Below are positions 24,564 to 61,170 of a stretch of DNA of 64,000 nt, piece after piece. A program made the translations under genes and the position numbers. Source of the stretch: an uncultured Pelagibacteraceae bacterium (lineage in GTDB: Bacteria; Pseudomonadota; Alphaproteobacteria; Pelagibacterales; Pelagibacteraceae); contig CACONH010000002.1 in NCBI GenBank assembly GCA_902628495.1, positions 1 to 64,000 of the forward strand, given 5' to 3'. A model generated the notes under the pieces. The model did no database searches. It saw only the letters and a program-made list of their open reading frames with translations, and was not told the DNA's origin. Positions within the stretch are counted from its first letter, which is position 1, and every line of letters begins with the position of its first letter.

Positions 24564-24593
24564 TTGATTAATGCAATTTTTACCGACTATGTT
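24564..24593 (+). promoter_or_regulatory. Candidate sigma70-like promoter for the lysE-family gene
   Basis: TTGATT-18 nt-TATGTT; would place the start site near 24600, just before the hairpin. Confidence 0.4.
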
Positions 24594-24604
24594 ATTATAG
24601 TTCA

Positions 24605-24651
24605 GATAGTCCTATCTAGCCATCTTTAGCTCCCGGTTTTTTAGGACTATC
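24605..24651 (+). promoter_or_regulatory. Inverted repeat/5' leader hairpin upstream of the lysE-family gene
   Basis: GATAGTCCTA-(27 nt)-TAGGACTATC, perfect 10-bp stem ending 6 nt before the ATG at 24657. Confidence 0.65.
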
Positions 24652-24656
24652 CCATA

Positions 24657-25271
24657 ATGCTTCCCTTAGATTATTTTCTCTTTCTACAAATTATACTTTT
24701 TTTATTTATAACTCCAGGTACACCAAGAATTGTAATTATTTCATATGCGATGAATTATGGAACAAGAAATTGTATTTGGATTGCACTAGGTGATATTACT
24801 GCAAATCTAATACAAGCTACTTTAGTAATATTTTTTATAGGATCCTTCATTGCTAATAATAGTGAAACATTAAATATTTTAAAATGGTTTGGTGTAGCTT
24901 ATTTATTTTATCTTTCTTACGATATCTATAGGTCTAGACCGACAAATTTTAACAAAGCATCAACAAAATCAAAAAAATTTTTATCTTTTTTTAAAGATGG
25001 ATTTATTGTAGCTGGAACAAGTCCAAAAGCTTGGATATTTTTTCCATTAATCTTTCCACAGTTTATAAATTTTAACGAAAATTATATTTTTCAATTTGTA
25101 ATTCTTATAATTACATACATGGTACTAGATTTTATCTCACTTATTGGCTATGCAATCTTAGCCAAAAAACTTTTAACATGGATCAACGCAAATCCAAGAG
25201 TGTTAAACACAATTTCGGCGTGTGTATTGATTTTCATTGCAATTTTTATTGGATTTACACAAAATTATTAA
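24657..25271 (+). CDS. LysE/RhtB-family amino-acid exporter
   Basis: LysE-type ITPGTPRIVIISYAMNYGTRN N-terminus; about six TM segments. Confidence 0.82.
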   Translation: MLPLDYFLFLQIILFLFITPGTPRIVIISYAMNYGTRNCIWIALGDITANLIQATLVIFFIGSFIANNSETLNILKWFGVAYLFYLSYDIYRSRPTNFNKASTKSKKFLSFFKDGFIVAGTSPKAWIFFPLIFPQFINFNENYIFQFVILIITYMVLDFISLIGYAILAKKLLTWINANPRVLNTISACVLIFIAIFIGFTQNY

Positions 25272-58841: not shown

Positions 58842-58871
58842 TTGACTTCTTTTTTTAGATCATGTTAAATT
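58842..58871 (+). promoter_or_regulatory. Candidate promoter for the Tat/GMC operon
   Basis: TTGACT-18 nt-TAAATT; the -10 lies inside the palindrome GTTAAATTTAAC (58864-58875). Confidence 0.45.
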
Positions 58872-58914
58872 TAACTTATAAAATTTATCATTAGATAAAT
58901 TTAACGTTAAATTT
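58864..58914. promoter_or_regulatory. Cluster of three palindromes (candidate operators or leader hairpins)
   Basis: GTTAAATTTAAC (58864-58875), AAATTTATC-ATTA-GATAAATTT (58881-58902), AAATTTAACGTTAAATTT (58897-58914). Confidence 0.55.
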
Positions 58915-58954
58915 TGAGAGTGCCACTTGAAGCCCTCAAGTTTCCCGCTCTCAA
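58914..58954 (+). promoter_or_regulatory. Two-part leader stem-loop upstream of the Tat-signal gene
   Basis: TTGAGAG...CTCTCAA outer stem, ACTTGA-AGCCC-TCAAGT inner stem, followed by GGAGG RBS at 58960. Confidence 0.65.
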
Positions 58955-58972
58955 CAATTGGAGGAAGAATAG

Positions 58973-59542
58973 ATGAAAATAACTAGACGAGAACTTCTAA
59001 TTAGTGCTGGATCTTTACTCGCTTACTCACAGTTGGGTTCACTAGCTAATGCTGAAGTTAATATCGCTGCACAGCCAGGTGATCAAGAAATGATCGCTTC
59101 TATGTGCAAAGCTCTATATCCGCATGATAGATTCCCAATGAGTATCTACATGGATGTAGCTGCTGGAGCTATCAAAAAAGGAAATGCTGACACAGGTGCA
59201 AAAATTTCCTTTAGAGCTGGTTTAGATGGCTTGAAGATTAATAAGTTCGACAAGATGAACTTTAAAAAACAAACTAAATACCTAAAATCAATAGAGAACA
59301 CTCCGTTCTTTGGCTTAGTAAGAGGTCATACGGTAGTAGCACTTTATGATCACAAAGAAGTTCACAAAATCTTTGGATACCAAGGTGCAAGCTTTGATAA
59401 AGGTGGTTACAAAGACGGCGAATACAATGACCTAACGTGGTTACCGGAGCCAAGAATTGAAGAGCACCCAGATTTAACTGCTTTTCTAGACGACAGCTCG
59501 CCGAAAAAATATGCGTCTTTGAAAATTAAAAAAACATTTTAA
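58973..59542 (+). CDS. Tat-signal protein resembling gluconate 2-dehydrogenase subunit 3
   Basis: TRRELLISAGSLL Tat-type leader; sits directly before a GMC oxidoreductase. Confidence 0.7.
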   Translation: MKITRRELLISAGSLLAYSQLGSLANAEVNIAAQPGDQEMIASMCKALYPHDRFPMSIYMDVAAGAIKKGNADTGAKISFRAGLDGLKINKFDKMNFKKQTKYLKSIENTPFFGLVRGHTVVALYDHKEVHKIFGYQGASFDKGGYKDGEYNDLTWLPEPRIEEHPDLTAFLDDSSPKKYASLKIKKTF

Positions 59543-59559
59543 CTAGGGGAGATATATAA

Positions 59560-61122
59560 ATGAAAATAGACAAAAAAGAAAAAGCTGTTGTCGTTATAGG
59601 ATCTGGTCCTGGTGGCGCACAAGTAGCTTATCAATTAACTAAACAGGGTATTCCTGTTGTTCTTTTAGAAGCTGGAAGACGTATTATGAAGGAAGAGTAC
59701 GTAAACGAAGAATGGCCAGCTTTCAGTCAAATGGCTTGGTTAGATAAAAGAACTATGTCAGGTAACGCTAGAATAGTTAAAGACTTTAATGGTTTACCAA
59801 CATGGTTAGTAAAAGCTGTGGGAGGAACTGCTACACACTGGGCAGGTGCTACTCCACGTTTTCTTGACTATGAATGGAAAACTAAATCAACTTACGGAAG
59901 CGTTGACGGTGCAACTCTAATGGACTGGCCGATCGATGGTAAAGAAATGAAGCCTTACTACGTAAAGGCTGAAGATGCTATCGGATCAACACATAGAGGT
60001 GGACGTCCTCCATTACCAGCAAATAACAACTATAAAGTTTTTGCTGAAGGAGCAAAAAGAAATGGTTACAAGTTCTATGCAACAGGACCTTACGGTACTA
60101 ATGCAGCTCCATATGATGGAAGACCAGCATCAATTCAAGATGGTTTTAATTTCCAAGGTGATAAAAATGGTTCAAAATGGAATCCAAACGTAAGTGAAAT
60201 TCCAAAAGCCCTTGCAACTGGAAAATTAGAGCTAAGAACAAACTCTCAAGCTGTTCAGATAACTACTGATAGTTCTGGAAAAGCTGATGGTGTTTTATAC
60301 ATGGACACAAAAACTAAAGCTTTACACAGACAAGAAGCTAAAGTTATTTGTGTTGCTGGTAACTCAATTGAGACACCAAGATTGTTCTTAATGAGTGCTT
60401 CATCAAGATTTCCAAATGGTTTAGCTAACAGCTCAGATCAAGTTGGAAGAAACTACATGAGACACTTAACAGGTTCAGTTTATGCTACATTTGATAAGCC
60501 AGTTAACTTCTTTAGAGGAGAGACTATGGCTGGGTTCTTAGCAGATGAAGTAAAACACAATCCTAAAAGAGGTTTCGTAGGTGGATACTATCTTGAGACA
60601 TTAGCTTTAGGACCATCATTCTTAGGTGCTTTCTTAGATCCAGGTAAATGGGGCAAGAAATTTGCTGACATGATGGATGGATATCAAAATATGGCTGGTA
60701 TGTGGATTGTAGGTGAAGATATGCCTCAAGCAAACAACAGAATAACTTTAGGATCTGCAAAAGACGCTTTTGGTCTTCCTGCTCCTAACGTTCACTTTGA
60801 TGATCACCCAAATGATACTGCTATGAGAAATCATGCTTATGAAAAAGGTGAAGCAATATACAAAGCTGTTGGTGCAACACAAACATACAGAGTTACACCA
60901 TATCCACACACTCACAACCTTGGCTCTATGAGAATGAGTGCTAAGGCAAAAGATGGTGTTGTAGATAAATGGGGCAGATGCCACGATGTGAAAAACCTTT
61001 TCGTATCAGACGGTTCTGTCATGACTACAGGTGCAGCATGTAACCCAACATTAACGATTACTGCATTAGCTATCAGACAAGGTGAATATCTTGCTGGTCA
61101 ACTAAAAAAAGGTAACGTTTAA
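59560..61122 (+). CDS. GMC-family FAD oxidoreductase (large subunit of membrane/periplasmic dehydrogenase type)
   Basis: VIGSGPGGAQVAYQL FAD motif; HTHNLGSMRMS; VSDGSVMTTGAACNPTLTITALAIRQGEYL. Confidence 0.88.
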   Translation: MKIDKKEKAVVVIGSGPGGAQVAYQLTKQGIPVVLLEAGRRIMKEEYVNEEWPAFSQMAWLDKRTMSGNARIVKDFNGLPTWLVKAVGGTATHWAGATPRFLDYEWKTKSTYGSVDGATLMDWPIDGKEMKPYYVKAEDAIGSTHRGGRPPLPANNNYKVFAEGAKRNGYKFYATGPYGTNAAPYDGRPASIQDGFNFQGDKNGSKWNPNVSEIPKALATGKLELRTNSQAVQITTDSSGKADGVLYMDTKTKALHRQEAKVICVAGNSIETPRLFLMSASSRFPNGLANSSDQVGRNYMRHLTGSVYATFDKPVNFFRGETMAGFLADEVKHNPKRGFVGGYYLETLALGPSFLGAFLDPGKWGKKFADMMDGYQNMAGMWIVGEDMPQANNRITLGSAKDAFGLPAPNVHFDDHPNDTAMRNHAYEKGEAIYKAVGATQTYRVTPYPHTHNLGSMRMSAKAKDGVVDKWGRCHDVKNLFVSDGSVMTTGAACNPTLTITALAIRQGEYLAGQLKKGNV

Positions 61123-61133
61123 TTAACTAATTT

Positions 61134-61170
61134 AAAAAGGCCCCATATTCATATATGGGGCCTTTTTTTT
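61134..61170 (+). terminator. Rho-independent terminator after the GMC oxidoreductase
   Basis: AAAAAGGCCCCATAT-TCAT-ATATGGGGCCTTTTTTTT. Confidence 0.9.

Follow-up and report, generated by a model that had tools for sequence, protein, structure and literature searches.

The window analysed here is a 64,000-nt stretch from an uncultured Pelagibacteraceae bacterium, whose genome is of the Pelagibacter type of SAR11 and whose nearest relatives are titled Pelagibacteraceae. Towards its end lies an operon for a Tat-signal protein and a GMC oxidoreductase, preceded by a conserved leader and closed by a terminator; its coding part and terminator are as follows.

58973..59542, plus strand: Tat-signal small subunit, 189 aa, of the FAD sugar dehydrogenase small-subunit type by context
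59560..61122, plus strand: GMC oxidoreductase, with FAD glucose dehydrogenase (6a2u) and the fructose dehydrogenase large subunit as nearest structures
61134..61169, plus strand: intrinsic terminator, AAAAAGGCCCCATAT-TCAT-ATATGGGGCC-TTTTTTT, read from the sequence and among the window's best-folding stretches

The gene order, small subunit with Tat signal first and GMC catalytic subunit second, is that of FAD glucose and fructose dehydrogenase operons (6a2u, 7w2j; PMC9727119), in which the small subunit of the Burkholderia FAD-GDH serves as a hitch-hiker protein for Tat export (PMC9727119); unlike those operons, the present one has no adjacent cytochrome gene and lacks the iron-sulphur cysteines. 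Window-type Tat proteins begin MKITRRELLISAGS, and the small subunit has no Pfam match of its own; its AlphaFold model is of low confidence (pLDDT 57), and a fold search was uninformative. It is 34–37% identical to the small proteins of sister-genus operons, one of which gives a Tat-signal match and a sub-threshold match to Gluconate_2-dh3. At about residues 188–200 of the GMC protein, a region that in FAD glucose dehydrogenase contains the clustered cysteines of a 3Fe-4S centre (PMC9727119), the three cysteines of ACQQIGFCFQGCK are gone in all seven window-type enzymes (here ASIQDGFNFQGDK) and are kept in five sister-genus orthologues. In other genera the operon follows a heme-protein-like gene, which is absent here; together with the lost cysteines, this suggests that the electron path has likely been re-wired in the window-type lineage. 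The terminator was not flagged by a consensus scan and sits in a 143-nt gap that is 94–99% conserved; its position after the GMC gene and the conservation of that gap point to a closed transcript of two genes. The gaps flanking the two genes measure 134, 17, and 143 nt, so the earlier note's remark that intergenic regions here are otherwise very short holds in part.

The window was compared with 14 loci found in the genome collection with the Tat protein (95–99% identical), which are designated by L numbers and fall into a near group (L013–L021 and L026) and a diverged group (L022–L025). Upstream of the operon, the 15 genomes share a promoter pattern consisting of TTGACW, 18 nt, and an TGTTAAAAT-like extended −10.

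58842..58847, plus strand: −35 element TTGACT, with TTGAC invariant in the 15 genomes and TTGACA in diverged relatives
58863..58871, plus strand: extended −10, TGT-TAAATT, read as TGT-TAAAAT, TGT-TAAGAT, or TGT-TAGAAT in relatives, with the 18-nt spacer kept

The promoter proposed in the earlier note, TTGACT and TAAATT (58866–58871) separated by 18 nt, is thus both present and conserved. Promoter hexamers as such occur at chance level (6 sites in 2.9 kb vs. 9.3 expected), so that support for the promoter comes from the conservation of the hexamers across genomes, not from the hexamers themselves. A σ70-type promoter with an extended −10 is the best explanation of this segment, and the position of the −10 predicts a transcription start at about 58878–58880. 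The 64 nt preceding the promoter are 52–62% identical to the window in the diverged group, which places the onset of conservation approximately where transcription should begin; the conserved block of all 15 genomes starts near the predicted +1 and ends at the ATG. As a separate observation, the segment 58778–58877, promoter and preceding DNA together, occurs in two very different versions (52–62% identity), although the flanking genes of these genomes share over 90% identity, a pattern that may reflect fast evolution or replacement of the promoter segment.

The transcribed part of the conserved block is predicted to contain a hairpin near its start and a two-part hairpin before the ribosome-binding site.

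58878..58972, plus strand: conserved 95-nt 5′ leader, 91–96% identical to L022–L024
58882..58901, plus strand: hairpin P1, AAUUUAUC-AUUA-GAUAAAUU, its pairs kept in all sequences with one U-G (L018)
58914..58954, plus strand: hairpin P2, UUGAGAGUG (58914–58922) with CGCUCUCAA (58946–58954)
58925..58941, plus strand: inner hairpin P3, ACUUGA with UCAAGU, with a compensatory G-C to A-U change in L025

The leader is present in all 15 genomes that carry the close Tat/GMC operon; its 15 copies reduce to eight distinct, very similar sequences, and that of L025 matches the window at 90 of 94 nt. Substitutions in the four diverged genomes affect 3–10% of leader positions, vs. 13–23% of fourfold-degenerate sites in both genes, a rate 2 to 5 times lower (Fisher p 0.013 to 1e-5). 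Conservation is high in further gaps of the locus too (GMC–gpsA, 94–99%; lyase–glyoxalase, 88–90%), so the leader is not unique within it in this respect. Conservation extends to unpaired residues of the leader, namely TTAACGTT, TCC, and CAAUUGGAGGAAG. Of 200 dinucleotide shuffles of the window's leader, 199 fold less well than the leader itself (z = −3.35); the leaders of its relatives give z values of −2.2 to −4.6. Among 8,522 GC-corrected 95-nt stretches of the window, the fold belongs to the top 0.5%. The GC content of P2/P3 is 52.5%, as against 20% in the upstream intergenic DNA and 30.6% in the whole window.

The two-part stem described earlier, with outer arms TTGAGAG (58914–58920) and CTCTCAA (58948–58954) and inner P3 arms ACTTGA (58925–58930) and TCAAGT (58936–58941), is confirmed, and its hairpins are kept across the 15 genomes; P2 may extend further through AAUU (58910–58913) and AAUU (58956–58959). 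Over the eight distinct sequences, 99.1% of the pairs in P1, P2, and P3 are standard, compared with 27–45% when the partners are slid by one to three columns. Changes within the stems comprise three wobble changes (U-A to U-G in P1 of L018, U-G to U-A in P2 of L022, and U-A to U-G in P3 of L024), one compensatory double change (the G-C to A-U in P3 of L025), and two broken pairs (L015 and L025), both of which adjoin a loop or bulge. Substitutions placed at random over the leader would be expected to break 10.9 cells rather than the two seen (P ~1e-4); this scarcity is not significant once the number of stem hits is fixed (P 0.22). The search for compensatory changes among orthologues, which the earlier note had proposed as a check, therefore returned one double change that is not itself significant (66 of 500 shuffles score as high; simulation P 0.16–0.26). 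Support for the predicted structure is good from folding and from the retention of pairs, and does not come from covariation.

Immediately downstream of P2 is the ribosome-binding site, for which two segments of the hairpin are complementary.

58960..58964, plus strand: Shine-Dalgarno sequence GGAGG, invariant, 8 nt upstream of the ATG (58973)
58934..58937, plus strand: CCUC in the P3 loop, able to pair with GAGG in every sequence, with wobbles in L024 and L025
58941..58945, plus strand: UUUCC, at the foot of P3 and in the P2 internal loop, able to form 5 bp with GGAGG (58960–58964) in all sequences

GGAGG begins 5 nt after P2, and the predicted folds leave it single-stranded or pair it weakly at best; in the fold of L015 it is mostly free. 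The pseudoknot suggested in the earlier note, between CCTC and GAGG, can form in every sequence and would use two P3 bases; GGAGG is invariant, however, and the unpaired stretch of the P2 internal loop, UUUCC or UCUCC, is complementary to it throughout, which makes UUUCC/GGAGG a pseudoknot candidate at least as good. UUUCC has changed only twice (L015 and L024), each time converting a G-U pair with GGAGG into G-C. These changes favor the pairing and are suggestive, but they amount to two transitions opposite an invariant Shine-Dalgarno sequence; because GGAGG never varies, models of its sequestration lie beyond a covariation test. No terminator was found within the leader.

Taken as an RNA, this element is probably a lineage-specific structured 5′ leader that acts on translation or stability, a likelihood divided about evenly between active regulation and constitutive stabilization. 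The comparison shows that the leader is conserved from the predicted +1, that its hairpins persist, that it goes one-to-one with this operon, and that Rfam has no match for it; the transcription start, RNA-level action, the pseudoknot, and any sensed signal are what we infer from these features. The leader would set expression after transcription has begun: P1, at the extreme 5′ end of the transcript, would shield the mRNA, and P2/P3 would govern access of ribosomes to the Shine-Dalgarno sequence. In an open state GGAGG would be free or weakly paired; in a closed state UUUCC (or CCUC) of P2/P3 would fold back onto it as a pseudoknot. The element is best described as a candidate for a new, lineage-specific structured leader of an ordinary kind, in which a switch is putative.

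The constitutive half of this reading, in which the hairpins guard the mRNA at its 5′ end and leave the ribosome-binding site clear with no sensing at all, is a tentative possibility of some weight. In E. coli, the ompA message is stabilized by a stem-loop at its 5′ end. The leader is like that mRNA in its predicted hairpin at the extreme 5′ end and second hairpin before the Shine-Dalgarno sequence, and unlike it in sequence and organism. P1 at the predicted 5′ end and a Shine-Dalgarno sequence left open or weakly paired (and mostly free in L015) are what a stabilizing leader would present, and the extended −10, strong Shine-Dalgarno sequence, and terminator suggest an operon in steady expression. 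A mere stabilizer would not need the conserved unpaired TTAACGTT, TCC, and CAAUUGGAGGAAG, however, and the retained complementarity of UUUCC to the ribosome-binding site also argues against it.

A different view of the same DNA is that one or both dyads between about +1 and +37 (AATTTATC-N4-GATAAATT and AAATTTAACGTTAAATTT) bind a repressor or activator as operators and that the RNA hairpin is incidental. The palindromes and the dyad named in the earlier note are indeed there: apart from the two features below, AAATTTATC-ATTA-GATAAATTT occupies 58881–58902.

58864..58875, unstranded: palindrome GTTAAATTTAAC, overlapping the −10 and perfect in 2 of 15 genomes (the window and L017)
58897..58914, unstranded: 18-bp palindrome AAATTTAACGTTAAATTT, intact in 10 of 15 genomes

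The position of the dyads just downstream of +1 suits a repressor, and AAATTTAACGTTAAATTT is the only perfect palindrome of at least 18 bp, and the longest, in the 64-kb window. All but one of the 15 genomes keep the P1 dyad perfect over 8 bp around an invariant spacer of 4 nt; the same conservation would be expected of an RNA hairpin, so P1 could serve as either DNA or RNA. Loose P1-like dyads with two or three mismatches number 107 in the genome vs. 65 for a reversed control, which differs in word content. Against an operator, AAATTTAACGTTAAATTT is broken in 5 of 15 genomes, by a T to A change in L013, L017, L020, and L022 and by a 1-nt deletion in L015, and the palindrome over the −10, perfect in two, is probably incidental. 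Elsewhere in the genome the P1 dyad does not recur with zero or one mismatch, TTTAACGTTAAA is not enriched there (24 vs. 36 for the control), no regulator gene lies among the neighbors tested, and an operator would not explain why the GC-rich 40 nt of P2/P3 are conserved. Poorly conserved and not enriched, the palindromes are weak evidence of an operator, and the operator reading is unlikely. As conserved operators they lack support, and neither appears to mark a regulon, although a regulator with a single target may act here; of the earlier proposal of transcriptional control combined with a cis-regulatory RNA, the promoter and the structured leader stand and the palindromic operators do not.

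Within the RNA-level reading, a more specific form is a new, small riboswitch class of SAR11, in which a ligand-dependent P2/P3 pseudoknot would capture GGAGG through UUUCC; we regard this as doubtful, and place equally little confidence in its corollary that a sugar, polyol, or redox metabolite of the GMC enzyme would control translation of its own dehydrogenase. The earlier note recognized no known riboswitch class here, and Rfam bears this out: no family of Rfam 15 matches the region at the gathering score, and a permissive search returned chance matches alone (E 1.3 and 3.7). If the leader is a switch, the most plausible model is the mode of SAM-V and SAM-II in SAR11 (PMC6061858; PMC11508383), which exert compact, translational pseudoknot control near the ribosome-binding site; unlike these, the leader has no match to them in sequence or structure, and its operon is not methionine related. 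Among structured RNAs of SAR11, GC enrichment in AT-rich intergenic DNA is a hallmark (Meyer et al., 2009; PMC2704228), and P2/P3, at its GC content within an AT-rich gap, fits it. The candidates reported for 'Cand. Pelagibacter ubique' were the rpsB, rpsL, and ffh motifs and the pntA, rhtB, and SAR11_0636 elements (PMC2704228). Like these, the leader is a short, GC-enriched structured element directly 5′ of a gene in a SAR11 intergenic region, and like the weaker ones it has limited support from covariation; unlike them, it is not among the motifs of that survey, which mentions no dehydrogenase or oxidoreductase.

The remaining explanations fare less well. That the features arose by chance from AT-rich palindromes and the recent common ancestry of the genomes would account for promoter-like hexamers at chance level, for the overall similarity of the sequences, and for the conservation of other gaps of the locus; the two- to fivefold lower rate of change in the leader than at fourfold-degenerate sites, the sharp drop of identity at the promoter, and the fold z of −3.35 all speak against it, and it appears improbable. 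An RNA thermometer, in which the Shine-Dalgarno sequence would open on warming, is more improbable still: predicted pairing of three of its bases does fall from ~0.95 at 5–15°C to ~0.65 at 37°C, but these bases pair singly with three positions of the leader, of which L015 has lost one, there is no thermometer-like Shine-Dalgarno hairpin, and folding across temperatures gave no convincing case. A leader-peptide attenuator is barely credible and was rejected, since the 18-codon frame that exists in the window (GTG CCA CTT GAA ... AGA TGA, from GTG at 58920 to a TGA overlapping the Tat ATG) is destroyed by 1-nt deletions in L018 and L023, indels in L015, L018, and L023 exclude a conserved reading frame, and neither a Shine-Dalgarno sequence at a proper distance nor an attenuator terminator is present.

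The leader occurs one-to-one with the Tat/GMC operon in the genomes searched. In 397 genomes from the family and 337 from the class, a covariance model of the leader matched this operon alone. Nothing comparable was found in the rest of the window's genome, a search of the genus likewise led to no other operon, and additional genomes drawn from the genus yielded no new leader sequences. The Tat loci turn up again in ~1–3% of the genomes sampled at order, family, or genus level, and the leader is limited to the minority of Pelagibacter genomes with this operon. Viral contigs contained neither a relative of the Tat protein nor the leader. Partial matches of 24 or 25 nt in the genus (L062–L074) were set aside, because the flanks they share suggest a single conserved coding segment.

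In the streamlined genomes of SAR11, transcription factors are few and intergenic gaps very short. A conserved, folded leader of 95 nt on one accessory operon is therefore a promising site at which to seek RNA-level control in the most abundant marine heterotrophs. Should the leader prove a true switch, its ligand would reveal what the GMC enzyme oxidizes; should it be a mere stabilizer, it is an ordinary feature.

Orthologous operons of sister genera have unrelated leaders, and one genus keeps the gene order, with the operon after glyoxalase; the leader would therefore seem dispensable for the enzyme in general. In L031, L033, and L091 of a sister genus, U/C-rich stretches lying ~60 nt upstream of the Tat gene are able to pair with its G-rich ribosome-binding site, most clearly in L091 (−11.6 kcal/mol), in a set with too few sister leaders to judge. 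Elsewhere in the window, positions 24587–24662 match the known SAR11 rhtB RNA element (Rfam RF01814) at 77 bits.
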